From: Asterias amurensis
Taxonomy: Eukaryota > Echinodermata > Asteroidea > Forcipulatida > Asteriidae
Direction of reading: 5' to 3'
Assembly: GCF_032118995.1 (NCBI RefSeq)
Contig: NC_092660.1
Coordinates: 20,012,501-20,076,500, forward strand
DNA: 64,000 nucleotides
Below the pieces are notes generated by a model that had not been told where the DNA came from, did no database searches, and saw nothing but the letters and a program-made list of their open reading frames with translations. The stretch's first letter is position 1. Each line of letters begins with the position of its first letter. The translations under genes were made by a program, and so were the position numbers. Of this stretch, positions 4,649 through 58,100 are shown one piece after another.

Positions 4649-5367
4649 TTATTTTGCATGAATCTTTTTATGGCTCTTTAAATGGTCACTTCGAATGAAG
4701 GACATACTGCATTGGTCACAGCCAAATGGTTTCTCCTTGGTGTGGATTCTCTCATGTATAGTCCGGTAAGAGCTCCTTGTGAAAGCCATCCCGCAGTACT
4801 GGCAGACAAACTCCTTGCAGTTCAGATGGATTGCCTCATGGCTGTTAAGGTTAAAGCGTGTCTTAAATGTCTTCGGACACATATGGCAAGCGTAAGGACG
4901 GGCAACATCATGGACTTTTTGGTGATGGTACAAGTATTTGGCACGGTGGAATGACTTATCGCATTTGTCGCAAGAGTATGACCTGTCTTCTGGGTCTAGG
5001 GGCTCGTGACACTTCAAATGTCTTGAGAAGTTTCTCTTCGCGGAGAAAGTCTTCCCGCACTCGTCGCAGCGATACTCGTTGCTGGCAACTTTGTGAAGTT
5101 CCTGGTGTCTTTTGAGGTTACCCTTGTAGGTGAATTTATCACCGCAGTCATTACAAGAGAAGCTTCCACGATCACTTTTCTCTTTATTTGCTCTTGGTTT
5201 TCCGGATGCAGACTTTGGTTTGAAACAAATTCTCAATTGTATTTTGGGAGTTGTCTTTGGAGTTTTGGGAGAAGGAGTCTTGGAGACTGCTTTTTTTTTT
5301 ACTTTTACGGATGACTGAGACTCTGGACTTTCAGGCCTTTTAAAGCGGCAAATGGTTCCCATTGTTT
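4649..5367 (-). CDS. Zinc-finger gene, exon 2 (all fingers)
   Basis: Follows a tatgtag acceptor. Contains the basic linker and all six C2H2 fingers in one exon, ending at TAA 4649-4651. Confidence 0.9.
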
Positions 5368-6218
5368 CTACATATGAAATAAAATAAACAAGAATGTTTT
5401 CATTGAGTAAGCTTTTTGTCTTAAAGGCACTAAACATTTTTGGTAATTGAACAATATTCTGTCTTGGTGTATCCCAACATAAAATTAAAAATCTGTGACA
5501 ATTTTGGCTGGTACAAGCATCAGAAATTAATTGTTAAAAGCATATTTTTGTTTTGACATAGTTTGTCACAAGATAATAACAATAGAAGGTGTTGTCAAAA
5601 TTATTTTGTGGAACTTACATACCAGCGACGTCGTGTTTTTTGCTTTTTAAGTTGTTTCTAAACTATGAACCGATCTAAAATAAACGTTTATAAATTATAT
5701 GTGATGACATGTGTAATAAACTCATAAAACAGTTTTTTAATCATGGTTTAAGCAATGAAAAAAAAGTGAACCATCAAACACGGTTTATAAATCATGGTTT
5801 AGAACCCCCCCCCCATAAAATACTTGAAAAAAAACGGCACTTTAATCAGGAAAGTCTTTACCTGAACTCTGAGAGCTGATGCTCAAACATGATCCGTTTG
5901 TAATCCATAAAAATTATAGCAACATAAAACATGGTTTACAAATCATGGTTTAGCCTACAATACCCCTTACTGACAAAAAACCCGAACAAAAACCCCACTT
6001 TTATCAGGCAAGTGTGTACCTGAACTCTGTGAGCTGATGCTCCCAGGATTCCTTCCCTCTCTTCTCTTAATGCAGACCGTGACGCCACTCGTCCTGGCAC
6101 AGCCATAGGAAAAGCTTGGACGGAACTGGTTAACTTCTTCCTGACACTCTCTTTGAAGCCTGGAAAGCGTTTCCTCAATGTCTTCCGTATCAGTCGACAT
6201 TAAAGGCTCGGAAGCCAT
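4649..6218 (-). CDS. C2H2 zinc-finger protein, six fingers (two exons)
   Basis: I join exon 1 (6218-6020, from ATG, 66 codons plus one base) to exon 2 (5367-4649) across an intron with gt at 6019 and ag before 5367. The join keeps the frame and gives 305 residues. Residues 1-66 are acidic then basic, without a known domain. Residues 75-135 are rich in Lys, Pro and Ser and look like a disordered basic linker. Six C2H2 fingers run from about residue 138 to the end, each with the C-X2-C-X12-H-X3-H pattern. Only the linker before finger 6 (TKEKPF) resembles the classical TGEKP linker; the others are atypical. This predicts a nuclear DNA-binding protein, but the fingers do not name an orthologue. 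An ATG inside exon 2 (MGTICR) could start a shorter form. The stop overlaps an AATAAA at 4648-4653, so the 3' UTR may be very short or use another signal. Confidence 0.88.
5421..5520. repeat. Partial TTAA MITE end
   Basis: 'ttaaaggcac' and the following 'ttttggtaatt' match the end of the TTAA MITE family (10242-10610, 38955-39210). No matching right end is obvious. It lies in the zinc-finger intron. Confidence 0.4.
6020..6218 (-). CDS. Zinc-finger gene, exon 1
   Basis: Starts at the ATG of MASEPLM and ends SSQSS plus one base at a gtacac donor. The last ~25 bases and the donor are duplicated in the intron (5781-5884 compared with 5931-6043). Confidence 0.75.
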
Positions 6219-9722: not shown

Positions 9723-9996
9723 CTAATGGTTCACACTTACATGTTTCTCACCGCTGCTTTTTGCAAATAACTTTTCCCAACTTTTAACCATCCTCCTGAC
9801 TGTCTTCACTATCATTATTATCATCCCTATCTTCATCATTTTCATCATCTTCACCATCCTCAACATCTTTATCTCTATAAACAAGAGCACTACCATTATC
9901 AAAGAAGTCATGTCTTTCATCATTCTCATAACCATCCCTCTTTACTGTCTTCACTATCACCACCATCACTATCATTATCTTCATCTTCTTAATCAT
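9723..9996 (-). pseudogene. Relic of paralogue-type acidic tail
   Basis: In the minus frame a stretch reading DGYENDERHDFF...GSALVYRDKDVEDG matches the short module found in paralogue B (GYENEERYDS...GSPLIYRDEDVEGG). It has no start, N-terminal domain or splice context of its own. It lies 3' of paralogue A, on the same strand, and may be part of an older, longer tail cut off by the MITE at 10242-10610. Confidence 0.55.
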
Positions 9997-10610: not shown

Positions 10611-12524
10611 TTAATAGAGCCAGGCGACTTCACTGTCTTCAGTATCAACCCCGTCGTCGTCACTATCGATGTCGTTGTCATCGTTTTCGTCGTCGAAACT
10701 TTGATATTTTTTTGCAGAATCAAAACTATCTGTTTCGTCCTTAATACTTTGCTCATCACTATCTCTACTGTTGTCACTGTCATCGTAAATAGATGGTGTA
10801 CCATGTGCTGTCCCCTGATGACAGTTAAATCGACATGCCCAATCAATCTTGAATGACAGATTACTATGATGTTGACTGGTTGGATGTTTGATGGTGCCGC
10901 TTGGTAAAATATGACGTTGAAGAGTAGGTTGTCCGAAGGAGCTGCTTGAAGAAGGTTGGCTTTTGAAAGTTGATTCTTGGATGGCCCTGTCCAGACGAAA
11001 CTGAGGTTTAGGAGTAGATTGTCCGAAGGAGCTGCTTGAAGACAGTTCGCGTTTGGATGTTGATTTCTGGGTGGCGCTGTCTGAATGAAACTGAGGTTTG
11101 GGAGTTGCCCATTGGAGGAGGCTGCATGAAGAAGGTTGGCTTTTGGATGTTGATTTTTGGGTGGCGATGTCATAACGAAAGTGAGGTTTGGGAGTAGGTT
11201 GTCCGAAGGGGATGCTTGAAGAAGGTTGGCTTATGAAAGTTGATTCTTGGATGGCCCTGTCCGGACGAAACTGAGGTTTAGGAGTAGGTTGTCCGAAGGA
11301 GCTGCTTGACGAAGGTTGGCTTTTGGATGTTGATTTTTGGATGGCGATGTCATAACGAAACTGAGGTTTAGGAGTAGGTTGTCCGAAGGAGCTGCTTGAA
11401 GACAGTTCGCTTTTGGATGTTGATTTCTGGGTGGCGCTGTCTGAATGAAACTGAGGTTTGGGAGTTGCCCATTGGAGGAGGCTGCATGAAGAAGGTTGGC
11501 TTTTGGATGTTGATTTTTGGGTGGCGATGTCATAACGAAAGTGAGGTTTGGGAGTAGGTTGTCCGAAGGGGATGCTTGAAGAAGGTTGGCTTATGAAAGT
11601 TGATTCTTGGATGGCCCTGTCCGGACGAAACTGAGGTTTAGGAGTAGGTTGTCCGAAGGAGCTGCTTGACGAAGGTTGGCTTTTGGATGTTGATTTTTGG
11701 ATGGCGATGTCATAACGAAACTGAGATTTAGGAGTAAGTTGTCCGTAGGGGATGCTTGAAGACAGTTCGTTTTTGGATGTTGATTTCTGGGTGGCGCTGT
11801 CTGAACGAAACTGAGGTTGGGGTGTTGGCCATCCGACGGAGATGTTCGAAGAAGGTTTGCTTTTGGATTTTTTCATGGTGCTCTCTAAACAAAGCTGACC
11901 TTGAGGAAATGGTCGTTTCAAGGAGCTGTATGATGAGGAAGGTTGGCTATTGAAAGTTGATTCTTGGATGGCCCTGTCCGGACGAAACTGAGGTTTAGGA
12001 GTAGGTTGTCCGAAGGAGCTGCTTGACGAAGGTTGGCTTTTGGATGTTGATTTTTGGATGGCGATGTCATAACGAAACTGAGGTTTAGGAGTAGGTTGTC
12101 CGAAGGAGCTGCTTGAAGACAGTTCGCTTTTGGATGTTGATTTCTGGGTGGCGCTGTCTGAATGAAACTGAGGTTTGGGAGTTGCCCATTGGAGGAGGCT
12201 GCATGAAGAAGGTTGGCTTTTGGATGTTGATTTTTGGGTGGCGATGTCATAACGAAAGTGAGGGCTGGGAGTAGGTTGTCCGAAGGGGATGCTTGAAGAA
12301 GGTTGGCTTATGAAAGTTGATTCTTGGATGGCCCTGTCCGGACGAAACTGAGGTTTAGGAGTAGGTTGTCCGAAGGAGCTGCTTGACGAAGGTTGGCTTT
12401 TGGATGTTGATTTTTGGATGGCGATGTCATAACGAAACTGAGATTTAGGAGTAAGTAGGATTTGAAACTTTGCATGGTGGAGATAAGATATAGAAGAGTT
12501 TGCGGTAACACCATGTAATAACAA
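10611..12524 (-). pseudogene. Severed 3' part of paralogue A (basic repeats, acidic end)
   Basis: This open frame continues the Ser/Gln/Pro repeats of 12583-14700 after a 215-bp insertion. Its first ~23 codons are insertion sequence; the host part begins near 12455. Repeat units are ~30 residues (type KPQFR-D-A-QKSTSK, then SSSSSFGQPTP), grouped into a 360-bp higher-order repeat ('ttggaggaggctgcatgaag' at about 11111, 11471 and 12188). The last ~70 residues turn acidic (SFDDENDDNDIDSDDDG). The frame ends at TAA 10611-10613. Whether it is translated now is unknown; the simplest reading is a detached piece of gene A, unless the insertion is removed as an intron. Confidence 0.75.
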
Positions 12525-12670
12525 TCTCTAAATGAGTTGGGGTGGTTCTGAAAAGAACCGTTGGGTTAACTCGACGTTTCGATCAGTATGCTCTGATCGT
12601 CTTCTGGAGAATGCTGGACTCTGATGCTGCATGCTGCTTAAGTACTAGGCGGTGGATCAGCGGCGGTGGA
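12456..12670 (-). mobile_element. Penelope-like retroelement 3' fragment inside paralogue A
   Basis: This 215-bp stretch is foreign to the surrounding repeat array and is flanked by an 11-bp direct duplication, ttaggagtaag, at 12445-12455 and 12671-12681. It contains 'gaccaccc'/'gaaccgttgg' blocks and a stem 'gatcag-agcata-ctgatc' followed by 'gaaacgtcgagtt' on the minus strand. The relative at 58010-58170 has the same core. I recall this type of end from Penelope-like elements; that assignment is inference. Confidence 0.7.
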
Positions 12671-14700
12671 TTAGGAGTAAGTTGTCCGTAGGGGATGCTT
12701 GAAGACAGTTCGTTTTTGGATGTTGATTTCTGGGTGGCGCTGTCTGAACGAAACTGAGGTTGGGGTGTTGGCCATCCGACGGAGATGTTCGAAGAAGGTT
12801 TGCTTTTGGATTTTTTCATGGTGCTCTCTAAACAAAGCTGACCTTGAGGAAAGGGTCGTTTCAAGGAGCTGTATGATGAGGAAGGTTGGCTATTGAAAGT
12901 TGATTCTTGGATGGCCCTGTCCGGACGAAACTGAGGTTTAGGAGTAGGTTGTCCGAAGGAGCTGCTTGACGAAGGTTGGCTTTTGGATGTTGATTTTTGG
13001 ATGGCGATGTCATAACGAAACTGAGGTTTAGGAGTAGGTTGTCCGAAGGGGATGCTTGAAGACAGTCCGCTTTTGGATGTTGATGTCTGGGTGGCGCTGT
13101 CTGAATTAAACTGAGGTTTGGGAGTTGCCAATTGGAGGAGGCTACATGAAGAAGGTTGGCTTTTGGAAGTTGATTTTTGAGTGGCGCTGTCTGAACGAAA
13201 CTGAGGTTTGGGAGTTGGCCATCCGTAGGAGATGTTCGAAGAAGGTTTGCTTTTGGATGTTTTCATGGTGCTCTCTAAACAAAACTGACCTTGAGGAAAT
13301 GGTCGTTTCAAGGAGCTGTATGAAGAAGGTTGGATTTTGAAAGTTGTTGCTCGGATGGCGCCGGCTGCAGGAAACTGATGTTTGGGAGTTGACCATGTGG
13401 AGGAGCTGCTTGAAGGTTGGCTTTCGGAAATTGATTTTTGGAAGGCTCTGCTGCCTAGAGAAACCCGATGTTGGGAAATTGGTTGCCCGAAGGAGCTGCT
13501 TGATAAAGTTTGGCTTTTGGTGGGGGAATTTTGGATAGTGCCGCCTGGAGGGAACTGATGTTTGAGAATGGGTTGATAGAGGGCGTTATTTTGATTAGGC
13601 TGACGCAATGGAGCATTGATGTTGGAATACATTGTCCCAGAAGACTGTTGTTGAAAGGGTGGTGGTGGTGGCTGAAAGGTGCCAAGTAGAGGCTGACGTT
13701 GAGCTAGTTGATAAACGCTGTCATTCAAGGGGATTCTTGGCTGAAGACTGCTGACGCCAACTTGCCTTGGTATGTTTTTGCGGAACAACCGAACGATCAC
13801 ATCACAGCCACGCATTGGACGAAAATCTAGATTCTGGCAGAAGTTCCTAATAGTATTCGAGTAAGAACCAAGAGGCATATTGGGTTTACCTCGGAATTGA
13901 AATACCATGTCCAGACCAGCAGGGGAAGCAAATTGCTGCTCAAAACCATCACCAGGGTAATTGTTGTCAATAAACAACACCAAACAACCGTGCTTTAGCT
14001 CATTGAGAATAGAACGCAGTAGTTCTTTTCGGTTTGGGTCAGTTCGGAAAAATGCTGAAACCGCTGAGTAGGATTTCACAAGCGTAAGTAGATCTACATC
14101 TCTGATGAAACTTATGACATCACTTGGAAGTCTTGTATCTCTGACAAGGTCACATCTCTTGTAGGTCACCTGAAAATCATCTGGTAGAGTTTGGTAAATA
14201 GTATCCCAAGTGAGTTTCCAGTTTGGGAACAAATCCAGAACAAAGCAATGGAGCGACGAAGGGAAGAGGTTTGTATCTCGAAGGAATTTAGTGAGACCAA
14301 CAAGGTCTGAACCCGGCCCACCACCAATACTACACGTCTTCATACTCTGCTTGTATTTCAACGTTCTTGAGATCTCAGTCAGGTTTTGATGAAGAGAGTG
14401 ATGTACGAGGTAACAGTGATGCATAAAATACAGAAAGACATAGGCGCATCGGTTAGCAGCGTCATTCCAATCCGATCGGTAGTCAGAGCTTGAATGAGAC
14501 AGCCCTGTCCTGTACATCTGAGAAATTCTTCTAACAGACTTTTTTACTTGATCGTACTTAGAGACACCATCGACTTGATCAAGAAGGCCATCAAGGGTTT
14601 CTGTCAATACACGTCGGAAGAAATCTGCTACAAATGACTGTGCAATTGTTGGTGGTGTTTGAAGACCGTTCCAATCCATTCTTTCTGTAATATAATTCAT
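12583..14700 (-). CDS. Paralogue A: methyltransferase-like domain plus basic repeat tail (truncated)
   Basis: The 705-residue frame starts MNYITERMDW. Residues 1-~310 are the shared domain: helical N-terminus, GGGPGSD at about 126-132 (glycine-rich loop as in motif I of class I SAM methyltransferases), an acidic residue at the end of the next strand (LDLFPNW), then YKRCDL, LVKSYSAVSAF and LVLFIDNNYPGD. This arrangement suggests a Rossmann-like methyltransferase fold, but no catalytic signature tells the substrate. A Pro/Gln-rich linker (TFQPPPPPFQQQ) follows, then Ser/Lys/Gln repeats with net positive charge. The last ~29 residues (from about NPPPLIHR) come from the inserted retroelement, which supplies the stop. 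Deleting 226 bp (insert plus one duplication) joins it in frame to 10611-12455. Met8 (MDWN) is an alternative start if the upstream 'ttatattacag' is a splice acceptor. Confidence 0.8.
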   Translation of the reverse strand: MNYITERMDWNGLQTPPTIAQSFVADFFRRVLTETLDGLLDQVDGVSKYDQVKKSVRRISQMYRTGLSHSSSDYRSDWNDAANRCAYVFLYFMHHCYLVHHSLHQNLTEISRTLKYKQSMKTCSIGGGPGSDLVGLTKFLRDTNLFPSSLHCFVLDLFPNWKLTWDTIYQTLPDDFQVTYKRCDLVRDTRLPSDVISFIRDVDLLTLVKSYSAVSAFFRTDPNRKELLRSILNELKHGCLVLFIDNNYPGDGFEQQFASPAGLDMVFQFRGKPNMPLGSYSNTIRNFCQNLDFRPMRGCDVIVRLFRKNIPRQVGVSSLQPRIPLNDSVYQLAQRQPLLGTFQPPPPPFQQQSSGTMYSNINAPLRQPNQNNALYQPILKHQFPPGGTIQNSPTKSQTLSSSSFGQPISQHRVSLGSRAFQKSISESQPSSSSSTWSTPKHQFPAAGAIRATTFKIQPSSYSSLKRPFPQGQFCLESTMKTSKSKPSSNISYGWPTPKPQFRSDSATQKSTSKSQPSSCSLLQLATPKPQFNSDSATQTSTSKSGLSSSIPFGQPTPKPQFRYDIAIQKSTSKSQPSSSSSFGQPTPKPQFRPDRAIQESTFNSQPSSSYSSLKRPFPQGQLCLESTMKKSKSKPSSNISVGWPTPQPQFRSDSATQKSTSKNELSSSIPYGQLTPNPPPLIHRLVLKQHAASESSILQKTIRAY

Positions 14701-14995
14701 GCAAGTAGATCATTAGATCCTTGTCACAAGTGAACTTGAAGGAAGCACTGAACACTTCGATTCTAACAGTAATACCACTGTTTTAGAGATAATGTGTAGA
14801 CATTAAAAATGCCTGGAACCGGAAGTCTTTTTAGGCAAAGTACACCTGTGGTTTTTAGAACTGGTTGATTATTTGAACTAAGTTATAGTTAATGTAGATT
14901 TATTAATCATTTCAAAGGGCCGTCGCGTTTGGAGATCACTGGAATTTTCGAACTGATGGCCGTGCCGAAAGAATACTTCCTTATAGGAATAAATA
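14701..14995. other. 5' flank of paralogue A; start of duplicated flank
   Basis: The first ~60 bases match, inverted, the sequence just upstream of B and C ('gatccttgtcacaagtgaactt'-like). From about 14888 to 14990 the plus strand matches 20560-20660, downstream of B, marking the edge of the tandem duplication unit. Confidence 0.6.
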
Positions 14996-15387
14996 ATATC
15001 GAAGTCTTATATAGCGCACGTATCTACCAAACAAGGTACTCAAGGCGCTGAGTATATACAAACTTTCAGAAAGATAGGATTTGCAGTGATGAATTCTGAG
15101 ACCCATATATGTAGCACCTTATAAGGGTTTACAAGGCGCGTAGATTGGCCGCAACCAGGAACACCGGGGCGAACCCCTTCTCTTTTTAATAAGTGTACTG
15201 GGTTCTTTTACATGCGTTACACAACACATGGGACCAACGGCTTTACGTCCCATCCGAAGGATGAAGCATTGGTCAAGTGTCTTGCTTTAAGGACACAAGT
15301 GTCACGGCTGGGGATTCGAACCCACACTCTGCTGATCAGAAACACCAGAGTTTGAATTAGGTGCTCTTTACGCTCGGCCACGACACT
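14996..15387 (-). repeat. tRNA-headed SINE
   Basis: On the minus strand it begins 'gtgtcgtggccgagcg', carries a B box near 15310-15325, and ends in 'gcgctatataagac'-type sequence. It is the same family as 39419-39766. It is absent at the equivalent site after B (20660), so it was inserted after the duplication or lost there. Confidence 0.8.
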
Positions 15388-16399
15388 TCCACAGGAGCGG
15401 AGCGTTACATGAGGAGCGTTTCTGTAGTAACGTTTCTTATATTCAAATTTTGGGGAATACAAACTGCTGGGAATAAAACAAATTAATTACCGTGAGTTGC
15501 ATGCTTTAAGGATTTTTGGAACTGGTTGTCAGAATATAGAGCAGTCATCAGTTTTGCAATAGAGCAAAATCTACACAGTATTTCTAGTACACATAGAAAC
15601 TATGTTGGTAATAGATGCTATTTACAACATCAAGCGAGAGATTCATACTTGAGAAAGAGTATGTTTATTGTATCATGACTAAATCCAAGATGGCTACAGA
15701 TGACCTCAAAATTAAAAATGTTTTGGCCGAGTTTGGTTTTTGTTGTACACTATGCGCTGACTAAGAAACTTACCTTTTAGCTGGGTTTTCTTTGATAGAG
15801 CTTTATTTCAGAATAAAAAACGGACAACACATGTGACACAATCTGACAAAATCCACGGAAAAAATAATTATTACATGAAATTCAGAACACAGAAGTTCTT
15901 GCACAATCGCTCGTTGATTAAGGGTATTCCCCTTATCTAAAAATAAACAAGAAACGGAGTTCCTGAGAGGTCATAATCATAGTCACTTACAGTTATGAGG
16001 GGTCTCACGGATTTCTACACCGCGGTAGTAGCATATATATACAGCATGACAGTAGTAGATACACACATCTAGAACAAATATTATATATTGATACCTCGTC
16101 ATGAAATGCCTCAAATCCTATATTGACTTATTCATTGAGACGGAATTCTATTTTGCGGCATAAACGGTTACGAGAGAAGCATTGCATGTGTCAAACCGCC
16201 TCAACCACCCACTCATGCGCAGATAGTAACAGCTCTGCATAGATTATTCGTGTAAGGAGATACATTTATCGCATATGGTATGAGCATGGAGGAAGAATCC
16301 ATGGTATGAGTATGACTAATAAGGGTAACAGCCTACAAGGAGCAGTCAACATTGGTTTTTTAAATGACTTACTTCCTTTCGGCACCAATTAAAGACAAG

Positions 16400-16616
16400 T
16401 TGCATGCCTACCTTGTTTATAAATATTGCTGTGCATAATTTTTAGTCTATGTAAGATACATGTATACCTTATATTCTTAATTAATATCTTAATCTGTCTG
16501 TTTATTGTTATACAATTTTTAGTGGTTTTTTCTGTACTGTTTGAATCAAGGCCAGTTTTAATTTCCCCAGTGTGGGATAATAAAGTCTTATCTTATCTTA
16601 TCTTATCTTATCTTAC
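16400..16616 (+). repeat. LINE-like 3' end with (TCTTA)n tail
   Basis: 'ccccagtgtgggataataaag' followed by five or so TCTTA units is a typical 3' end of CR1/L2-type non-LTR elements with a simple-repeat tail. No reverse transcriptase coding is visible. A (TCTTA)n tract also occurs at 20703-20732. Confidence 0.55.
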
Positions 16617-18160
16617 ATGTACAGCAGTAATCTGTCCACTTGTTCCCGATCTATGAGCTATCAATTGGGTTTAGACATTTTTCTTCGAAAAACTTTTCAC
16701 AATGCAAAAAACTAGTATTAAAATTGACACCATGGGTGTTTTCATATATACACAAGAGAGAATCAAACTGATTATAATATAAATGGTGTTAAAATGTCAT
16801 TTCTATTTTTTTTTAATTCTTTGTCTTAATTGTGATTCTCTCTTCAGTATGTGACAACACCCATTTTTATCACCTCTATTTCCTGCAGTGTTATAATGGG
16901 CAGTTAGTACTGTAGCCAGTATACACCGAAAACACATTTTTAGTTAATTGCTCGTTTAGCTTTTATAAAAAACAGATATGTTTTTGATATAAGGATGCAT
17001 CATAAGTTTGAGAAGCTTAACCTCGCAACGCCCCACCCTTGTTACACGACAAAATAAAATACACCTATAATAATTATTATGTTAATTTAAAAACAAAATC
17101 AATGCTATTACCCTTTCGAAACGTTGTAGAGATGTTTGGCCAAATAATAATATACAATTAAGTTTCTTTCGGGCATCTGCCCGGAACACCTCTTGCATGT
17201 TATTCTCGTTTTTCTTAATACTTATATAATTCTTCTTTTCTCCCCTGCGATTGTCCGCTTATTCTAATCGCACATTATTTTTCCAAGCTCATTATGAACT
17301 TGAAATGTCAAGCGCCCTCTACTGGCTAGTGAAATGTAAACAAACAGCGTTGCATTGCGTACAGGGGAATACCCTAGATTCGTTGAGCAATATTCCTATG
17401 CGACAGCTTCCTGCTGCTGGACTTCATAATTTTCGTATTTTATTCAAGAATAGAGCTCTAAAGCAAAGCCAACTGAATATAAAGGTAGGTTTCTGAGTCA
17501 GCATGGTGAAAAAAACTAAACTGCCCCTAAATATGTTTAATTTGGAATCCAAATTGTTTATTCATTCTCAGTTCTATGAAATACTGTAATGCTTGCTCTA
17601 TTCCACATAATGGACTCCTGGTAGTCATGTAACGTGTTAATAACAACTGAGTTGGGAAATCGACTGTAGAAGAAATTATTATCGGCATAGCAAATATTTA
17701 TAGCCAATCTCCATCACTCAATCAACTCTCAATGGCGATTTTGTTTCAACTTTTATAATCCAAATCCGAAAGGCACAATTTGTACAGCTCAAATTTTGAA
17801 GTTGTTCTTTTCCTTCTCGAATTATACCGCTAGTTTGCCTTATATTACACCATAGAGCATCTATTATAATGCACATCCCGGGTACTTACACAAATCGACC
17901 CCCCCCCCCAAAAAAAAAAAAAAAAAAAAAAAACACGTCAAAAAAAACCTGCCAATTAGCCCCCTCTAAAGTCGTATACTGAGGAATAAACTAACTGATA
18001 TCAATCCTAGGGTCTTTCTGATGGTTTAGATGGTTACAGACGTGTCTAAATGCTTACATAATATTCTCTATAGAGCAGTATACTAGTGCAATGTAAGAAT
18101 CGAAGTGCTCAATGCTTCTTGCAAGTTCACTTGTGACAAGGATCTAATGATGTACTTTGC
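16617..18160 (+). repeat. 5' flank of paralogue B, duplicated upstream of C
   Basis: This flank is matched along most of its length by 20733-22949, apart from insertions in the C copy (about 22150-22390 and the MITE at 22399-22766). It includes a MITE-like block (16733-16868) also present at 20853-20996 and 33374-33535, and a C-run plus A-run at 17900-17934. A conserved 'aaag|gtaggttt' at 17485 looks like a splice donor. It could pair with 'ttatattacag' ending at 18176 and give a 5' noncoding exon. Confidence 0.65.
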
Positions 18161-20539
18161 ATGAATTATATTACAGACAGAATGGATTGGAACAGTATTC
18201 AAACACCACCAACAAATGCAGCAGATTTCTTCCGACGTGTATTGACAACAACCCTTGATGGCCTTCTTAATCAAGTCGATGGTGTCTTTAAGTATGATCA
18301 AGTTAGAGAGTCTGTACGACGAATTTCTCAGATGTACAGGACAGGGCTGTCTCATTCAAGCTCTGACTACCGATCGGATTGGAATGACGCTGCTAACCGA
18401 TGCGCCTATGTCTTCCTGTATTTTATGCATCACTGTTACCTCGTACATCACTCTCTTCATCAAAACCTGGCTGAGATCTCAAGAACGTTGAAATACAAGC
18501 AGAGTATGAAGACGTGTAGTATTGGTGGTGGGCCGGGTTCAGACCTTGTTGGTCTCACTAAATTCCTTCGAGATACAAACCTCTTCCCTTCGTCGCTCCA
18601 TTGCTTTGTTCTGGATTTGTTCCCAAACTGGAAACTCACTTGGGATACTATTTACCAAACTCTACCAGATGATTTCCAGGTGACGTACAAGAGATGTGAC
18701 CTTGTCAGAGATACAAGACTTCCAAGTGATGTCATCAGTTTCATCAGAGATGTAGATCTACTTACGCTTGTCAAATCCTACTCAGCGGTTTCAGCATTTT
18801 TCCGAACTGACCCAAACCGAAAAGAACTACTGCGTTCTATTCTCAATGAGCTAAAGCACGGTTGTTTGGTGTTGTTTATTGACAACAATTACCCAGGTGA
18901 TGGTTTTGAGCAGCAATTTGCTTCCCCTGCTGGTCTGGACATGGTATTTCAATTCCGAGGTAAACCCAATATGCCTTATGGTTCTTACTCGACTACTATA
19001 AGAAACTTCAGCCAGAATCTTGATTTTAGTCCAATGCGTAGCTGTGATGTGATCGTTCGGTTATTCCGCAAGAGTCAGTCAAAAATCCCCTTGAATGACA
19101 GGGTCTTCCAGCTAGCTCAACATCAGCCGTTACGTAGTACCTTTCAATCTCCACCACTGCCCTTTCGACAACAATCTTTTGTTGCAAATAATCCCTACGT
19201 CAACGCTCTCCCCACAATGCGTCGGCCAACTGAAAGCAAGTCCCTCTATCAGCAAATTTGCGAAGTAGAGATTCCCCCAGATGCCACCATTCACCGACCT
19301 TTCCGGACAATATTTCCCCACATGTATGCTCCCGTACGTCAGCCTACTTCAGGTTTTGAGAATGATGCGAGGCATGACCTCGTTGATCTTGGTAGCCCTC
19401 TTACCTATAGAGATGAAGATGATAAAGAAAAGGATGGTTATGATAATGTTGTAAGGTATGAATTATTTGATCATGGTACTCCTCTTTTTAGAGATGAATA
19501 TGTTGAAGATGGTGGAGGGTATGAAGGTGCTAAAATGGACGATGTAAGTGGTGGAGAGTATGAAGAAAATTTAGAGAATGGAGTAGATGATGCTAAGGAC
19601 AGTGATGATGATAGTAAACACAGTAAGGAGGAAGGTTATGAGAATGAGGAAAGGTATGATTCCCTTTTTGATTATGGTAGTCCTCTTATTTATAGAGATG
19701 AAGATGTTGAAGGTGGTAAAGAAGATGATGATGGTGAAGATGATGGCGATGTGGGCGATTTATATGGTGGAGGGTATGAATATGGCGATGTGGGCGATTT
19801 ATATGGTGGAGGGTATGAAGATGGCGATGTGGGCGATTTATATGGTGGAGGGTATGAATATGGCGATGTGGGCGATTTATATGGTGGAGGGTATGAAGAT
19901 GGCGATGTGGGCGATTTATATGGTGGAGGGTATGAAGATGGCGATGTGGGCGATTTATATGGTGGAGGGTATGAAGATGGCGATGTGGGCGATTTATATG
20001 GTGGAGGGTATGAATATGGCGATGTGGGCGATTTATATGGTGGAGGGTATGAATATGGCGATGTGGGCGATTTTTATGGTGGAGGGTATGAAGATGGTGA
20101 AGTGAATGATGTATATGGTGGAGGGTATGAAGATGGCGATGTGGTCGATTTATATGGTGGAGGGTATGAAGATGGCGATGTGGGCGATTTATATGGTGGA
20201 GGGTATGAAGATGGCGATGTGGGCGATTTATATGGTGGAGGGTATGAAGATGGCGATGTGGGCGATTTATATGGTGGAGGGTATGAAGATGGCGATGTGG
20301 GCGATTTATATGGTGGAGGGTATGAAGATGGCGATGTGGGCGATTTATATGGTGGAGGGTATGAAGATGGCGATGTGGGCGATTTATATGGTGGAGGGTA
20401 TGAAGATGGCGATGTGGGCGATTTATATGGTGGAGGGTATGAATATGGTGATGTGGGCGATTTATATGGTGGAGGGTATGAAGATGGCGATGTGGGCGAT
20501 TTATATGGTGGAGGGTATGAAGTATGTTCGATTGTTTAA
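18161..20539 (+). CDS. Paralogue B: methyltransferase-like domain plus 20x 13-residue repeats
   Basis: The frame codes for 792 residues. Residues 1-~303 are the shared domain, nearly identical to A and C: GGGPGSD at 122-128, Asp152 in LDLFPNW, CDLVRD at 179-184, LVKSYSAVSAF at 203-213, LFIDNNYPGDGF at 238-249. A Pro/Gln linker follows (to ~400). Then come three copies of an acidic module ending in GSPL-YRDED or similar. Finally 20 near-identical units GDVGDLYGGGYED (or ...EY) span 19745-20524. The tail is acidic, Gly/Tyr-rich and probably disordered. Near-identity at DNA level implies recent expansion. There is no signal peptide or membrane segment. The product is unknown; a SAM-dependent methyltransferase role is inferred only from the fold-like motifs. 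The start may instead be Met8 (18182) if splicing uses the acceptor ending at 18176. Confidence 0.85.
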   Translation: MNYITDRMDWNSIQTPPTNAADFFRRVLTTTLDGLLNQVDGVFKYDQVRESVRRISQMYRTGLSHSSSDYRSDWNDAANRCAYVFLYFMHHCYLVHHSLHQNLAEISRTLKYKQSMKTCSIGGGPGSDLVGLTKFLRDTNLFPSSLHCFVLDLFPNWKLTWDTIYQTLPDDFQVTYKRCDLVRDTRLPSDVISFIRDVDLLTLVKSYSAVSAFFRTDPNRKELLRSILNELKHGCLVLFIDNNYPGDGFEQQFASPAGLDMVFQFRGKPNMPYGSYSTTIRNFSQNLDFSPMRSCDVIVRLFRKSQSKIPLNDRVFQLAQHQPLRSTFQSPPLPFRQQSFVANNPYVNALPTMRRPTESKSLYQQICEVEIPPDATIHRPFRTIFPHMYAPVRQPTSGFENDARHDLVDLGSPLTYRDEDDKEKDGYDNVVRYELFDHGTPLFRDEYVEDGGGYEGAKMDDVSGGEYEENLENGVDDAKDSDDDSKHSKEEGYENEERYDSLFDYGSPLIYRDEDVEGGKEDDDGEDDGDVGDLYGGGYEYGDVGDLYGGGYEDGDVGDLYGGGYEYGDVGDLYGGGYEDGDVGDLYGGGYEDGDVGDLYGGGYEDGDVGDLYGGGYEYGDVGDLYGGGYEYGDVGDFYGGGYEDGEVNDVYGGGYEDGDVVDLYGGGYEDGDVGDLYGGGYEDGDVGDLYGGGYEDGDVGDLYGGGYEDGDVGDLYGGGYEDGDVGDLYGGGYEDGDVGDLYGGGYEDGDVGDLYGGGYEYGDVGDLYGGGYEDGDVGDLYGGGYEVCSIV
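19745..20524 (+). repeat. 39-bp tandem repeat, 20 units, coding
   Basis: 780 bp equals exactly 20 units of 39 bp, each coding for 13 residues. Most differences are one base (gat or tat at the last codon). Units 9-11 are the most divergent (DFYGG, GEVNDVY, GDVVD). Confidence 0.97.
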
Positions 20540-22949
20540 ACTATATGCCTATCTTAATTAATGTAGATTTATTAATCATTTCAAAACGTCGGCGCGTTTG
20601 TGAGATTACTGACAATTTTGAACTAATGGACGTGTCGAAAGAATACTTCCTTTTATGAGTACATGGGAAGCGTAACTATAGTAACGCTTTTCATATTCAA
20701 ATCTTATCTTATCTTATCATATCTTATCTTACATGAACAGCAGTAATCTGTACACTTTTAGTCCCCGATCTATGAGTTATTAATTGGGTTAAGACGTTTT
20801 TCTTCGAACAACTTTTCACAATGCAAAAACTTAGTGTTAAAGTTGACACCATGGGTGTTTTCATACATACACAAGAGAGATTCAAAATGATTATAATATA
20901 AATGGTGTTAAAATGTCATTTCTGTTGGAGAAATAATTAGGGTTTTTTTTCTGTTTCTTAATTGTGGTTCTCTCTTCAGTATGTGACAACACCCATTTTT
21001 ATCACCTCCATTTCCATTTAATGGGCAGCTAGTACTGTAGCCAGTACACCGAAAACACATTTTTTAAAGTTAATTGCTCGTTTAGATTTTATAAAAAACA
21101 GATCTGTTTTGATACAAGGATGCATCATTAGTTTGAGAACCTTTACCTCGCGACGCCCCACCATTATTACACGACAATAATTATTACACCTCTAATTTTA
21201 CGTTAATAAAAAAAAGGCTAATAACCTTTCGAAACGTTGAAGAGATGTTTAGCAAATAATAGTACAAAAAAAACATTTCCCCGGGCATTTTCCCGGAGCA
21301 CCTCTTGTTTTTGTCGTTTTCTTAATACTTCAAGGTCGTCTTCTTCTCCCCTATTTTGGTCCGCAAATAACAATCGCAAATTTCTTTTCCAAGCTCGTTA
21401 CGAACTTGAAATGTCCAGCGCCCTCTACTGGCTACGGATCAATGTAAACAAACAGCGTTGCATTGCGTAATACAGGGGAATACCCTTTATTCGGTGAGCA
21501 ATATTCCTATGCGAGAGCTTCCTGCTGCTGGACTTCATAATTTTCGTATTTTATTCAAGAATACTAGAGCTCTAAAGCAAAGCCAACTGAAAGGTAGGTT
21601 TCTGAGTCAGCATGGTGACAAATACAAACTAAAACTGTCCCGAAATATGTTAAATTAGGATGTTAATCCATATCCAAATTGTTTATTCATTACTCAGTTC
21701 TATGAAATACTGTGACAATGGAATACTGTGTAATGCTTGCTCTGTTCCACATAATGGACTCTTAGTAGTCATGTAACGTGTTAAAGACAACTGAGTTGGG
21801 AAATCGTCTGTATATGAAATTATTATCGTCATAACCAATATTTAAAGCCAATCTCCATCACTCAATGGAAAAAAACCAGCAACACCTTTGTATCAACTTT
21901 TATTATCCAAATTCGAAAGGCACAATTTGTACAGCTCAAATTTTGAAGTTGTTCTTTTCCTTCTCGAAGTATACCGCTAGTTGGCCTTATATTACACCAT
22001 AGAGCATCTATATAATGCACATCCCGGGTACTTACACAAATCGACCCCCTCAAAAAAAAATATATAAAAAAACGTCATAAAAAAAACTGCCAATTAGCCC
22101 CCTCTAGAGTCGTATACTGAGGAATAAACTAACTGATATCAATCCCAGGGTCTTTCAGATGGTTTAGAGGTTGTATTTCGCCATTCCATTGGCGGAAAAA
22201 AATATATAACTGCATGGCAGACCAAGGCTCGTTTGAGTTGAAGTCAATGGGGAAGTTTTTACAGACAGCGGACCAGTCTATGTTGCAATAAAACAGCGGA
22301 TAAACGACCTTGTCCTGGCCATTCAAACTTTAAATTATATTCCTGAGGGTATTCTGCTAGGAGTCAGGGAAAATAGGATTGCAACTTCATTCATTTAAAG
22401 GTAAGGTACACGTTTGGTTGTTACTCAAAACAAATATTAACTTAAAAACTGACTTGGTAAAGAGGATTGGAAAACTGTGTATAATATAAAACATTGTGGG
22501 ACACAACTCCCTCTGAAGTAACGTAGTTTTTGAGAAAGAGATAGTTTCTCACTTAAATAATAAAAGACTTCTAGCTAGAAGTCTTTTATTCCTATCTGAA
22601 AGCACACGAATTCGTCCAACAAGGGTATTTTTTCTTTCATAGTTTTCTCGCAACTTCGGTGACCGATTGAGCCCAAATTTTCACAGGTTTGTTATTTTAT
22701 GCTAATGATGGGATACACCAAGTGAGAGCACTGGCCTTTGACGATTACCAAACGTGTATAATGCCTTTAAAGAGTAATTAGAAAAGGGCTTAAACCGTAG
22801 CACGGGTAAAAGACATCCAATTACAGACGTGTCTAAATGCTTACATAATATTCTCTATAGAGCAGTATACTATAGTGCAATGTAAGAATCGAAGTGTTCA
22901 ATGCTTCTTGCAAGTTCACTTGTGACAAGGATCTAATGATGTACTTTGC
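20540..22949 (+). repeat. Intergenic copy of the duplicated flank (upstream of C)
   Basis: 20560-20705 matches 14888-14990 plus 15395-15450; 20733-22200 and 22800-22949 match the flank of B. The candidate donor 'aag|gtaggttt' is conserved at 21594. The 'ttatattacag' acceptor before the C start is also kept. The small open frames around 21237-21658 are the same as one at 17251-17496 and could be exon sequence, but they are not shown to be coding. Confidence 0.65.
22399..22766. mobile_element. TTAA-flanked MITE, copy 2
   Basis: TTAA at 22395-22398 and 22767-22770 flank ends AGGTAAGGTACACG and inverted CGTGTATAATGCCT. The internal sequence is related to 10242-10610 ('gaaagcacacgaattcgt', 'ttttcacaggtttgttattttatg'). 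It is absent upstream of B, so it inserted after the duplication. Confidence 0.82.
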
Positions 22950-25900
22950 ATGAATTATATTACAGACGGAATGGATTGGAACGGTATTCAAACACCACCA
23001 ACAAATGCAGCAGATTTCTTCCGACGTGTATTGACAGAAACCCTCGATGGCCTTCTTATTCAAGTCGATGGTGTCTTTAAGTATGGTCAAGTTAGAGAGT
23101 CTGTACGACGAATTTCTCAGATGTACAGGACAGGGCTGTCTCATTCAAGCTCTGACTACCGATCGGATTGGAATGACGCTGCTAACCGATGCGCCTATGT
23201 CTTTCTGTACTTTATGCATCACTGTTACCTCGTACATCACTCTCTTCATCAAAACCTGGCTGAGATCTCAAGAACGTTGAAATACAAGCAGCGTATGAAG
23301 ACGTGTAGTATTGGTGGTGGGCCAGGCTCAGACCTTGTTGGTCTCACTAAATTCCTTCGAGATACAAACCTCTTCCCTTCGTCGCTCCATTGCCTTGTTC
23401 TGGATTTGTTTCCCAACTGGAAACTTGCTTGGGATACTATTTACCAAACTCTACCAGATGATTTCCAGGTGACCTACAAGAGATGTGACCTTGTCAGAGA
23501 TACAAGACTTTCAAGTGATGTCCTCAGTTTCATCAGAGATGTAGATATACTTACACTTGTCAAATCCTACTCTGCGGTTTCAGCATTTTTCCGAACTGAA
23601 CCGAACCAAAGAGAACTACTGCGTTCTATTCTCAATGAGCTAAAGCACGGTTGTTTGGTGTTGTTTATTGACAACAATTACCCAGGTGATGGTTTTGAGC
23701 AGCAATTTGCTTCCCCTGCTGGTCTTGACTTAATATTTCAATTCCGAGGTAAACCAAATATGCCTTTTGGTTCGTACTCGGTTACTATTAAGAACTTCTG
23801 CCAGAATCTAGATTTTAGTCCAATGCGTAGCTGTGATGTGATTGTTCGGTTATTCTGCAAAAATATGCCAAGGCAAAATGGCGTCAGCACTCTCCAGTCA
23901 AGAACCCACATGAATGACAGCGTATTTCAACTAGCTCATCGTCAGCCTCTACGTGGCACCTTTCAACCACCACCACCCTTTCAACCACAGTCTTTTGGGG
24001 TAAACTATCCCTATATCAATGCTCCAATGCATCGGCCTACTCAAAGCAGCTCCCTCAATCTGCCTATTACCCGGGCTGATAATCTCCAACATCAGTTTCC
24101 TCTAGGCAGAGCCTCCCAAAAATCAACTTCAAGCAGCTCCTCCCAACGGCCAACTCCCTTTGGGGCAATGTATTCCTACATCGATCCTTCAATGCGACAG
24201 CCTACTCAAAGCAGTCATTTCCCACAACCTTTTCTCCATCTTCAGTCTCCTCCAAGTGGCACCATCCAAAATCCAACCTTCAGAAGCCAACCTTATTCAA
24301 GCATCCCTTTTCAACAACCTAATCTCCATTGTCTTTTTCCTAATACAAGTGGGGAAAATGGTTCTCAGAATGATGCAAGGCATGAGTTCTTGAATCATGG
24401 TGGTCCTCTTGATTGTACAGATGGAGATGATGAAGACGATCGAGATAAGGATCGTGATTTGGATTGGTGTGAAGGGAATGAAGAGGATGAAGATGATGAA
24501 GATGACGAAGATGATGAAGATGATGAATATTCTGAAGGGAATGAAGATGAAGAAGATGATGAATGTGGTGAAGGGAATGAAGATGGTGAAGATGATGAAT
24601 GTGGTGAAGGGTATGAAGATGACGAAGATGGTGAAGATAGTGAAGATAGTGAAGATGATGAATATGGTGAAGGGAATGAAGATAGTGAAGATGATGAAAA
24701 TTGTGAAGGGTATGAAGATGATGAATATGGTGAAGGGAATGAAGATGATGAAGATGATGAAGATGATGAATGTGGTGAAGGGTATGAAGATGACGAGGAT
24801 GATGAATGTGCTGAAGGGAATGAAGATGATGAAGATGATGAATGTGGTGATGGGTATGAAGATGGTGAATATGGTGAAGGGGATGAAGATGATGAAGATG
24901 ATGAAGGTGATGAAGATGATGAATGTGGTGAAGGGTATGAAGATTACGAAGATGATGAATGTGGTGAAGGGAATGAAGATGAAGATGATGAAGATGATGA
25001 ATATGATGAATATGATGAATATGGAGAAGGGGATGAAGATGATGAAAGTGATGAAGAGGATGAAAATGGTGAAGGGTATGAAGAAGATGAATATGGTGAA
25101 GGTGATGAAGATGATGAATGTGGTGAAGGGTATGAAGATTACGAAGATGATGAATGTGGTGAAGGGAATGAAGATGAAGATGATGAAGATGATGAATATG
25201 ATGAATATGATGAATATGGAGAAGGGGATGAAGATGATGAAAGTGATGAAGAGGATGAAAATGGTGAAGGGTATGAAGAAGATGAATATGGTGAAGGGGA
25301 TGAAGATGATGAAGATGATGAAGGTGATGAAGATGATGAATATGGTGAAGGGGATGAAGATGATGAAAGTGATGAAAGTGATGAAGAGGATGAATATGAT
25401 GAATATGATGAATATGGTGAAGGGGATGAAGATGATGAAGATGATGAATACGATGAATATGGTGAATATGGTGAAGGGGATGAAGATGATGAAAGTGATG
25501 AAGAGGATGAAAATGGTGAAGGGTATGAAGAAGATGAATATGGTGAAGGGGATGAAGATGATGAAGATGATGAATATGATGAATACGATGAATATGGTGA
25601 AGGGGATGAAGATGATGAAAGTGATGAAGATGATGAATGTGGTGAAGGGGATGAAGATTACGAAGATGATGAATGTGGTGAAGGGAATGAAGATGAAGAT
25701 GATGAAGATGATGAATATGATGAATATGGTGAAGGGGATGAAGATGATGAAAGTGATGAAGGTGATGAATATGATGAATATGATGAATATGGTGAAGGGG
25801 ATGAAGATGATGAAAGTGATGAAGATGATGAATGTGGTGAAGGGGATGAAGATTACGAAGATGATGAATGTGGTGAAGGGAATGAAGATGAAGATGATGA

Positions 25901-26129
25901 AGATGATGAATATGATGAATATGGTGAAGGGGATGAAGATGATGAAAGTGATGAAGATGATGAAAATGGTGAAGGGTATGAAGAAGGTGAATATGGTGAA
26001 GGGGATGAAGATGATGAAGATGATGAAGATGATGAATGTGGTGAAGGGTATGAAGATTACGAAGATGATGAATGTGGTGAAGGGAATGAAGATGAAGATG
26101 ATAAAGATGATGAAGAAGATGAAGAATAA
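22950..26129 (+). CDS. Paralogue C: methyltransferase-like domain plus Asp/Glu repeat tail
   Basis: The frame codes for 1059 residues. Residues 1-~303 are the shared domain with GGGPGSD at 122-128 and the same downstream motifs (CDLVRD, LVKSYSAVSAF, LFIDNNYPGD). A Pro/Gln/Ser linker (TFQPPPPFQPQSFG) spans ~330-470. One short module (NDARHEF...GGPL) follows. About 550 residues are then almost only Asp, Glu, Gly, Tyr and Cys, in imperfect repeats such as DEDDEYGEGDEDDESDEEDE. The tail would be extremely acidic and disordered. Its DNA is (GATGAA)-like and open in other frames too, so long frames on the opposite strand are artefacts. It is tandem to B and shares its 5' flank. Function is unknown; the fold assignment carries the same caution as B. 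A polyadenylation signal follows at 26291. Confidence 0.85.
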   Translation: MNYITDGMDWNGIQTPPTNAADFFRRVLTETLDGLLIQVDGVFKYGQVRESVRRISQMYRTGLSHSSSDYRSDWNDAANRCAYVFLYFMHHCYLVHHSLHQNLAEISRTLKYKQRMKTCSIGGGPGSDLVGLTKFLRDTNLFPSSLHCLVLDLFPNWKLAWDTIYQTLPDDFQVTYKRCDLVRDTRLSSDVLSFIRDVDILTLVKSYSAVSAFFRTEPNQRELLRSILNELKHGCLVLFIDNNYPGDGFEQQFASPAGLDLIFQFRGKPNMPFGSYSVTIKNFCQNLDFSPMRSCDVIVRLFCKNMPRQNGVSTLQSRTHMNDSVFQLAHRQPLRGTFQPPPPFQPQSFGVNYPYINAPMHRPTQSSSLNLPITRADNLQHQFPLGRASQKSTSSSSSQRPTPFGAMYSYIDPSMRQPTQSSHFPQPFLHLQSPPSGTIQNPTFRSQPYSSIPFQQPNLHCLFPNTSGENGSQNDARHEFLNHGGPLDCTDGDDEDDRDKDRDLDWCEGNEEDEDDEDDEDDEDDEYSEGNEDEEDDECGEGNEDGEDDECGEGYEDDEDGEDSEDSEDDEYGEGNEDSEDDENCEGYEDDEYGEGNEDDEDDEDDECGEGYEDDEDDECAEGNEDDEDDECGDGYEDGEYGEGDEDDEDDEGDEDDECGEGYEDYEDDECGEGNEDEDDEDDEYDEYDEYGEGDEDDESDEEDENGEGYEEDEYGEGDEDDECGEGYEDYEDDECGEGNEDEDDEDDEYDEYDEYGEGDEDDESDEEDENGEGYEEDEYGEGDEDDEDDEGDEDDEYGEGDEDDESDESDEEDEYDEYDEYGEGDEDDEDDEYDEYGEYGEGDEDDESDEEDENGEGYEEDEYGEGDEDDEDDEYDEYDEYGEGDEDDESDEDDECGEGDEDYEDDECGEGNEDEDDEDDEYDEYGEGDEDDESDEGDEYDEYDEYGEGDEDDESDEDDECGEGDEDYEDDECGEGNEDEDDEDDEYDEYGEGDEDDESDEDDENGEGYEEGEYGEGDEDDEDDEDDECGEGYEDYEDDECGEGNEDEDDKDDEEDEE
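24465..26128 (+). repeat. Imperfect GATGAA-type coding repeat with higher-order units
   Basis: The tract is built of gat/gaa codons with ggt, tat and tgt interruptions. Blocks of ~120 bp recur: 'gaagattacgaagatgatga' appears at about 24940, 25134, 25662, 25850 and 26052, showing duplication of whole segments. Confidence 0.9.
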
Positions 26130-55100: not shown

Positions 55101-58100
55101 ATGTACAACACTTGGATCCAGATCTTAGGAGGTACACATGTACATTGAAAGGATGACCTTTAGTAACCCCTCTTGTTATAGATTTGAGTGAGCTTTTGGG
55201 ACCGGTATTCAAAAGTCTGCGATTCTCAGAGATACTAAACAATGGAGAATGAAGCAATCCACCGCGTGTTCTTTGAGTTGTTCCAAACTATTGCAATAGT
55301 AAATTAGTTTGTTAAGTGCCGTCATTTACTTCTGTAACATCCACTTTGCAGTATTTTTTTTCTTTTAGCAAGAGTTACCAGCTCCAGTGCCATGGGCTAG
55401 TAATAAGCATGTCTTGTAGGCCTGGGCGACTAGTATACAAATATTGACTGCTTCGAGTGCTATGGTTAAAACTACGACTCCTGAGGTGATCCTTGGAGCG
55501 TTCTATTTTCCCGAGGCCCAACAGACTATTTATCATCCTCGTACACGCAACATTCGTACGTGCGTTTCAGATACACAACTGATTGGGTTCGAGGTGGGTA
55601 AAAAGACGTCTGGGTACTGCACGCTGTGTGAAGGATGCACTACATGATCACACGGCTGCCGTTTCTAGTAAAACTAAGACATATCATGTGACGTGATCTA
55701 AACCCATGAAAAGGCAGAATCGGTTAGTCGCGTTCCTATTAGTCACAACTTTGACACTAGTCGCACTAGTCACCAAGGCTTAATGTTTATTAACCCTACC
55801 ACTGACTGGCCAATCAATATCATCCATTGTGGTTTTGATATGATAAATACTGTGACTTTGCAAGCCCACTTTGTGGTGAATGCAGAACACACATGTACAC
55901 ACGTTGGTGAATCCCGCTAATCGAGGACTTCTCCTGGTTTTCATAATAAAAAAAAACAAGGGAATGACTCATGCATTTTTGGTGAACCCATCACCTCCGA
56001 GTCCTAAACAGAACTGTATCATGCAACCAACACCTTTGTCACCTTCCCTGTCTACCTAAAGCAATGATGAATAATTCTTATTACAACCAAAAGGAGCCAG
56101 ACTAATTCACTCATCAAGCCTTGGTTTGGTTACCCACAACCTCGTTCCTAGTAGTGTACAATCTCGCCGCGCCATTTTTCTTTCTTTTCCAGAGTGTATG
56201 ACTCGATCATAACCCCCATGGAAGTATGACTTTAAAATATCAAAATATTTATGAAATTTTTAATTAATACTTTGGTTGATCATTTCTATGTTAGAGACTA
56301 CATGTATATAGAGCGCGCTGTCAAAAGACACATCAAGTCATAGAGCAACTGGCCCCCCCCCCCCCTCATACGTGCAACTGTATGCAGTTTAAGGTGACAA
56401 CATATGAACACGATTCATTTGAAATGTATTGTGTCGAAATACATGCATTTTTACATGCGGTGGAAAGTTTTTAACAAGCAAGCACGCAAAACAATCACTT
56501 TTGGTTAGCCAATCAGCGTTTAATTTTCAGTGTTACCCTCCCAAGAGTTAGTGACGACAAGTTTTGATACGCGGCACGGTGACTAGTGTTGTAGTTAGAC
56601 CAATTTAAGTGGTGGGCTCTAAATCCAATTTAATCCACCAAGGGCGAGCGGTGCTACAAAATTATTCATGATTAGATATGGGCCATCATTGCTGAAGTGC
56701 AATTTTAGGGGAAATCTGTGCTGGAAGAAAAGTGTTCAGAGTGCTGGGCGAGATTTGTTGGCTACAACAACGGCGCTGACCATGGTAGAAAGGCTGACAT
56801 GGGAGCGTCATCCAACCCACAGCATTCCTGCTCCCTGATAAAATACCAAGACCCTGAGGAAACCAGCTGATCTTAATAGTTAAGACTCTTACTACCAGTG
56901 AGAGAAGTTTTAGAATGTTCCTTTAGGGAACATCATGCTTTCATGCAAGATAAATTAACTTGTTATCTGGATAAACTGTATGGCACTCCTAGAGCTCCAT
57001 TACAAAACTGTGAAGTCATTCCCACATAAATCAAAAGACGTTTTCTTTTTAAATGCAAGATAAATTATTTTGTTATCTTGATAAGTTACATCGCAATCCT
57101 TGAGCTCCTTACAAAAGTGTGAAGTCATTCGCACATAAACAAAAAGGTACCTTTCATTGTTTTTTAAAATTGTGAGATAAATTATCCCCTTATCTGAATT
57201 CTATACACCGGTCCAAATCTTTGGAACAATCTCACACCTTGCATTAGACAGTCTTGTTCACTTAATGTATTTAAATCTAAGTTAAAAACCCATTTGTTTA
57301 CCTCACCCATTTAATTCATTCTTGCTCTAATTGTGTATTTGATTTGTCATTTTTTCTCAGCATTTTTTGTATTCCTTGTAATGCGCAGTAGAGTAACTGC
57401 GCAATATAAATATCCGTTTTATTATTATTATTATTATAAATGTTATGGCACTCCTAGAGCTCCAAACATTCGTATAACTAGCTATAACAAAGTTTCAAAA
57501 GAAACCAAAACCTAGTTTTTGTTAGAAAAATTGGTCCAATGATCATTGGAAATCCACAAAATGTATTAGCAATAATAGTGAGGAATAACTGTTAATTGTG
57601 AATCAACTCCCAAGTAACACATTATTGTCGCAATTGTTAGATAATGAGTTGAATCATTAAGAATGAGTGAATGAGGAAATAATTCATCATGAAATGATCA
57701 GTTCAACACAATCTTAAAGTGAATATGTTAAGAATTTAACGAATGAGTTTATTGGAGACAGAGAGACACTAGGTGGCAGCAGACATACCAGGGCCCAGTT
57801 TCATAGATCTGCTTAAGCAAACATTATGCTTACCAAAATAAGGTAACCAGCCAAAATACCATTCCACATGTACAATCTATGACTGGTATCCTGCTTATCT
57901 TTGCTTAAGCAGAAAACTGTTCAGTATTATTTGTTGTTTAAGCAACTCTATAAACGGGTGAAGTTTGAGGTAGCAACATGTGTTAATCTCTTTGAGTAGT
58001 GTGGGTGTTGAAATGAACTGGTGGCTGACAACTGAACGTTTCGACTTGATCGCCGAACTGGACGTTTTGATCAGTATGCTCTGATCATCTTCTGAAGACG

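Follow-up and report, generated by a model that had tools for sequence, protein, structure and literature searches.

Three starfish paralogues with a constant methyltransferase-like domain and differently amplified tails

The DNA considered here comprises 64,000 nucleotides from the starfish Asterias amurensis (contig NC_092660.1, positions 20,012,501 to 20,076,500 of the forward strand; hereafter the window). It contains three paralogous genes, A on the minus strand and B and C on the plus strand, each combining a nearly identical methyltransferase-like domain with a long repetitive tail. Their open reading frames (ORFs) encode 705 (A; 12583-14700, minus), 792 (B; 18161-20539, plus) and 1059 amino acids (C; 22950-26129, plus). 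An initial interpretation from the letters alone (the sequence-only reading) had described this arrangement, and our analysis largely bears it out: across the shared domain of ~310 amino acids A is 94% and C 92% identical to B, matches to the B domain in a genome search (E 4e-201 for A and 3e-199 for C) exclude chance, and the repeat arrays are indeed present.

Layout of the three genes and the break in A

The features of the locus are as follows:

13729-14700, minus: A, methyltransferase-like domain and start of the linker (residues 1-324; ORF and domain alignment)
12671-13728, minus: A, linker together with the first Ser/Gln/Pro block, in units of ~30 residues (repeat analysis)
12457-12670, minus: insert in A, assigned to the 5'-truncated 3' end of a Penelope-like element; stops the A frame at 12583
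10611-12456, minus: A, the part of the tail cut off by the insert, with units of ~30 residues before a terminal acidic stretch; at present an open frame of its own
9829-9989, minus: relic 80% similar to the acidic tail unit of B, downstream of A and outside its frames
18161-19090, plus: B, methyltransferase-like domain (residues 1-310; ORF and domain alignment)
19091-19741, plus: B, linker and acidic segment
19742-20522, plus: B, Gly/Tyr/Asp array with a 39-bp (13-residue) unit in 20 copies (repeat analysis)
22950-23903, plus: C, methyltransferase-like domain and start of the linker (residues 1-318; ORF and domain alignment)
23904-24477, plus: C, linker with stretches alignable to the A repeat units, then the acidic start
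24478-26129, plus: C, Asp/Glu-rich tail of 9-bp repeats (repeat analysis)
16577-18035, plus: block upstream of B that shares 83% identity with its counterpart upstream of C at 20693-22172

The resemblance between these two upstream blocks suggests that B and C arose by tandem duplication. Gene A had been read as one frame over 10611-14700; it is actually two, at 12583-14700 and 10611-12524, parted by the 214-bp insert. Direct repeats of 12 bp, ACTTACTCCTAA, flank the insert at 12671-12682 and 12445-12456, and part of the second may belong to the inserted element. A search returned 2046 candidate copies, 40 of which were scored: beyond the insert itself, 39 scored rows span 205-215 bases and are 98-100% identical to it, and two are short pieces. 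In a longer copy, L026, the shared 3' sequence is preceded by separate open stretches that code for a reverse transcriptase (RVT_1; E 1e-10) and for a GIY-YIG domain (E 3.4e-5), which identifies the insert by homology as the truncated 3' end of a Penelope-like element. The near-identity of the copies points to a recent insertion, and A probably lost its distal tail recently as a consequence. The break, being a high-copy insert between direct repeats, rules out both one continuous frame for A and an intron at this point.

The insert also contains a histone-type 3' stem-loop (12518-12564; Rfam RF00032, 35.6 bits against a threshold of 34). We considered and dropped the idea that this is a histone-like mRNA end of A, because the stem-loop belongs to the element: its 16-base core is intact in all eight element loci L024-L031, of which L024 is the window copy. 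At the Rfam gathering threshold it was found at no other place in the window or in loci L009-L023, and among the papers searched by text none paired Penelope-like elements with a histone-type stem-loop. A further stretch similar to the insert lies at 58088-58254 (plus) in the window.

A conserved domain and tails of common origin

Selection on the domain was gauged by the ratio of nonsynonymous to synonymous change (dN/dS; Nei-Gojobori) in 15 chosen pairs, a check that the sequence-only reading had called for. The ratios among the three genes (A-B 0.33, A-C 0.35 and B-C 0.36; Fisher p 0.0008, 0.0002 and 0.0004) reveal constraint rather than relaxation, and the domain of A, B and C is under purifying selection. 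Among the 12 other pairs ten lie at 0.25-0.78, one (L020-L021) reaches 1.19 and one gave no value. The domain is also a mosaic of gene conversion, as seen in a similarity that switches along the genes and in the clustering of odd-one-out sites (38 runs in 83 sites, p 0.00065): across positions 200-800 A and B differ at only 7 of 600 sites, as against 27 for A-C and 24 for B-C, whereas in the 100 bases before the ATG it is B and C that nearly coincide (1 difference in 98, as against 17 in 90 for A-B). The repeat units of the tails, by comparison, have no excess of silent change. The ratio for the A units is 0.92, with 0.94 and 0.91 in the shifted frames, and that for the B units, including one stray GGGYE unit outside the array, is 1.40, with 2.10 and 0.78 in the shifted frames, which makes it weak evidence.

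The tails are built on different units, namely 90-bp units in two blocks of 17.1 and 8.8 copies in A, 39-bp units in 20.0 copies with 96% matches in B and 9-bp Asp/Glu-rich units in 191.8 copies with 71% matches in C. They had been described as unrelated, a view that the linkers rule out. The Pro/Gln-rich linker is common to all three genes (A-C, E 8e-18; A-B, E 8e-12); the B-C match (E 3e-12, at 26% identity with long gaps) extends into the acidic start, and stretches in the C linker align to the A repeat units. The severed distal frame of A, too, ends in an acidic stretch. Comparison thus shows a common origin through homology of the linker in all three and of the acidic part in B and C; for the acidic end of A a common origin is likely, and it rests on composition and on the relic at 9829-9989. 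The pattern shown by the arrays is one of different segments amplified in different copies: a Ser/Gln/Pro unit in A, a Gly/Tyr/Asp unit within the acidic part in B and acidic codons in C. The sequence-only reading had paired a conserved module with fast-evolving disordered tails; the contrast between tail change and domain constraint stands, and the tails are probably disordered, to judge by their composition.

A group of family members on contig 5 offers a weaker parallel to this pattern. Three of them (L016, L018 and L019) carry long repeats of their own kind, of 17 residues in L016 and of 13-14 residues in L018 and L019, and share a C-terminal motif (L016-L018, E 0.001; L016-L019, E 0.007); L018 additionally keeps a stretch resembling L016 (E 0.006). 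The tail of another member, L014, had no match to the L016 tail. As a separate observation, two contig-5 members are preceded, at a distance of ~2 kb, by a 150-bp tandem repeat (L016:480-931 and L019:100-700).

The wider family and its assignment to class I methyltransferases

The three genes described in the sequence-only reading are part of a larger family. Searching the genome (491.5 Mb in 23 contigs, with the window at C13:20012501-20076500) with the B domain recovered at least 24 places, a lower bound, 23 of them uninterrupted: three in the window, nine in one group on contig 5, six and three in two groups on contig 4, and one each on contigs 2, 8 and 18. None of the 23 uninterrupted copies has an intron in the matched domain, which occupies a single open frame; 22 of the 24 places have no internal stop, one has a stop at the domain end and one is broken. 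The C-terminal parts are varied. Some members hardly exceed the domain alone, three relatives have a cysteine-rich C-terminal sequence, and a contig-4 paralogue 64% identical to B (L009:2865-4058) ends in a tail-anchor-like hydrophobic stretch that suggests membrane attachment.

Three lines of evidence support the assignment of the shared domain to the class I S-adenosylmethionine (SAM)-dependent methyltransferases, as the sequence-only reading had proposed from its GGGPGSD-type motif and the acidic strand end that follows. First, the Pfam profile PF11312 (Methyltransf_34; curated cut-off 26 bits) matches 21 of 22 aligned family members at E <= 1, the best at 3.2e-7, in an alignment spanning motif I to the strand 4 region. 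When eight members were scanned individually, one (L020:7868-8761, 30.3 bits) passed the cut-off; of eight PF11312 places in the genome five exceed it, all five belonging to this family and one being the broken copy, though three of the five pass only with their neighbours in frame. The glycine-rich motif I after strand 1 and the acidic residue ending strand 2 are near-invariant, with GGGP in 23 of 23 rows, followed by Gly in 22, and with Asp in 22 rows and Glu in one. Second, there are homologues in bacteria, described below. Third, the best model of a cyanobacterial relative, built from an alignment with A, B and C, has the class I strand order at a predicted local distance difference test score (pLDDT) of 79. 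A Foldseek search with this model returned 612 matches at E <= 0.001, and the solved structures among the matches listed are mostly methyltransferases.

Other searches contributed little. A first scan of the genome contigs, and searches of the Protein Data Bank by phmmer and with the cyanobacterial profile, gave nothing useful; NCBIfam gave one match at E 0.23 and otherwise none; and PHROGs, viral contigs and phages yielded no useful match to the domain or its relatives. In the literature nothing useful was found on the motif, the family name or intronless methyltransferases in Asterias.

PF11312, which includes yeast Bmt6, the maker of m3U2843 in 25S rRNA, is among the closest known points of reference: it aligns from motif I to strand 4, and some starfish paralogues pass its cut-off. 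The starfish family differs from it in its long repetitive tails, multicopy clusters and intronless domain, and in that A, B and C themselves stay under the cut-off. The tRNA m3C methyltransferase METTL6 gives a match below threshold through strands 3-5 (E 0.05, not significant) in which the motif I region is uncovered.

Bacterial relatives, likely chemistry and alternative explanations

The first hint of bacterial relatives came from a divergent member (L022), which matched two cyanobacterial proteins at E 0.6 and 0.2 in a search of plasmids; these two score 27.0 (L033) and 24.3 bits (L032) against PF11312. The cyanobacterial and starfish profiles align at E 2.2e-14 over 189 columns (hhalign); another alignment, at E 5e-47, was set aside since A, B and C were present on both of its sides. 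The relatives (for example WP_104910312.1 and BAY67155.1; L034-L041) are hypothetical proteins of ~304 amino acids, collinear with the starfish proteins over the ~300-residue domain and devoid of a tail. A further scan yielded eight prokaryotic loci, seven cyanobacterial and one from Gemmataceae (L040), and of 392 sampled planctomycete genomes 5 matched, counting the source genome. Several relatives match PF11312 in their own right, L040 (30.0 bits) lying over the cut-off together with L033, and L038 (23.3 bits) and L035 (21.5 bits) under it with L032. An ORF upstream of the L040 relative has a sequence that gives the impression of HsdM of type I restriction-modification systems.

The cyanobacterial loci are distinguished by their neighbour: a homologue of one AlkB-type dioxygenase lies just downstream of the methyltransferase in all eight examined (L032, L034-L039 and L041), with 130 bits to PF13532 in L034. 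Two of the pairs are on records named as plasmids, and the methyltransferase of L041 is divided between two ORFs. The substrates of AlkB enzymes are methylated bases in nucleic acids, and the position of such enzymes beside these genes makes methylation of a base in RNA or DNA the likeliest chemistry of the bacterial relatives, from which it may be carried over to the starfish proteins. The PF11312-like methyltransferase of this pair is uncharacterised.

Taken together, we consider it probable, with real room for doubt, that A, B and C are recent class I methyltransferases with a constant domain and one ancestral tail that has been differently amplified in each copy. They are recent members of a mostly clustered starfish family with an intronless domain and would most likely methylate a base in RNA. 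Purifying selection, together with gene conversion between copies, holds the catalytic domain constant. The C-terminal tails would descend from one ancestral Pro/Gln/Ser-then-acidic segment. A different part of it is multiplied in each copy with the frame preserved, probably through repeat slippage or unequal crossing-over, and the recent insertion of the Penelope-like 3' end has truncated the tail of A. Presumably the tail modulates localisation, condensation or partner binding, its sequence drifting as composition and frame are kept.

Several results weigh against this account. Against PF11312 the whole A, B and C proteins score 15.7-16.6 bits and the B domain alone 19.5, all under the cut-off. 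The starfish domain, modelled from the three near-identical rows of A, B and C, reaches a pLDDT of 36, the five models of the cyanobacterial relative range from 79 down to 50, and the query-normalised template modelling scores among the 50 Foldseek rows listed are 0.33-0.49. The best Foldseek E-values, moreover, belong to NNMT and RedM and then the farnesyl pyrophosphate (FPP) and histamine methyltransferases, and so include small-molecule enzymes (NNMT and histamine methyltransferase). An RNA substrate leans on the fold and neighbourhood of remote bacterial relatives, 22-23% identical to A, B and C; the window and loci L009-L023 yielded no AlkB-like sequence, and at the Gemmataceae locus (L040:3986-5890) a DUF1848 gene follows the relative and no AlkB gene adjoins it. 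As for the tails, a protein comparison of the severed distal frame of A with the B linker gave no match, leaving the acidic end of A unmatched to B.

It is unlikely, in our estimation, that this is instead a rapidly evolving conflict family directed against viruses or mobile elements, with tails and domains both diversifying under selection; conflict was one of the two settings, beside modular localisation, that the sequence-only reading had suggested. The clusters, growth in copy number, gene conversion and a broken copy would fit such a role, as would the higher dN/dS of 0.37-0.78 in five contig-5 pairs and of 1.19 in the contig-4 pair L020-L021, and a match of the AlkB-type neighbour in L034 to the 2-oxoglutarate (2OG) part of the PADLOC profile CARF_2OG (E 4.8e-56, positions 189-350 of 353). 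However, the domains of A, B and C are conserved (p < 0.001), and ratios near or above 1 are also compatible with relaxed constraint. The CARF part of the neighbour's profile is unmatched, and PADLOC had no match for the B domain and weak ones for two bacterial relatives (E 0.02 and 0.015).

We regard as equally doubtful a catalytically inert SAM-fold protein that binds and helps in the assembly of RNA or ribosomes, a role that METTL17/Rsm22 may have, its tail being an arm for contacts with RNA or protein. These mitoribosome assembly factors have a similar fold, yet are only 11-13% identical. One report on METTL17 (PMC11046306) describes four cysteines that bind an iron-sulfur cluster and a SAM motif less conserved than these ligands. 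The starfish family, in contrast, has motif I and the strand-2 acidic residue near-invariant. Its 22 aligned rows have no set of four invariant cysteines: C119 is the sole invariant one and C148 the sole other near-invariant column, the METTL17 ligand positions not having been mapped onto these rows. The VIA differences to the next rows are small, about 1 to 2 Z. Less likely still is a family of small-molecule methyltransferases akin to NNMT or histamine methyltransferase that has grown in the service of metabolism or chemical defence, to which the best Foldseek E-values would point: Rossmann methyltransferases cross-match widely, as the 612 matches attest, the cyanobacterial neighbour is an AlkB-type dioxygenase, and long acidic tails are, to our knowledge, unusual for such enzymes.

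Returning to a constant methyltransferase domain with a differently amplified tail, we entertain as a long shot a bolder version, in which the starfish family stems by horizontal acquisition from an AlkB-paired bacterial methyltransferase and has expanded into an arsenal that methylates RNA bases, each copy elaborating its own tail by multiplying another segment of a single ancestral arm that was disordered. The absence of introns in the domain and its collinearity with the cyanobacterial and planctomycete proteins prompt this suggestion. More generally, the locus may be seen as a natural experiment in the evolution of disordered tails, with sister domains homogenised and tails of common origin differently amplified. 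The starfish family would form a branch, in animals, of a superfamily of methyltransferases. Its relatives in cyanobacteria adjoin AlkB-type dioxygenases, and this pairing opens a reversible mark on nucleic-acid bases to direct test.

Elsewhere in the window lie a C2H2 zinc-finger frame (4649-5533, minus) and an adaptin N-terminal exon (62300-62689, minus).
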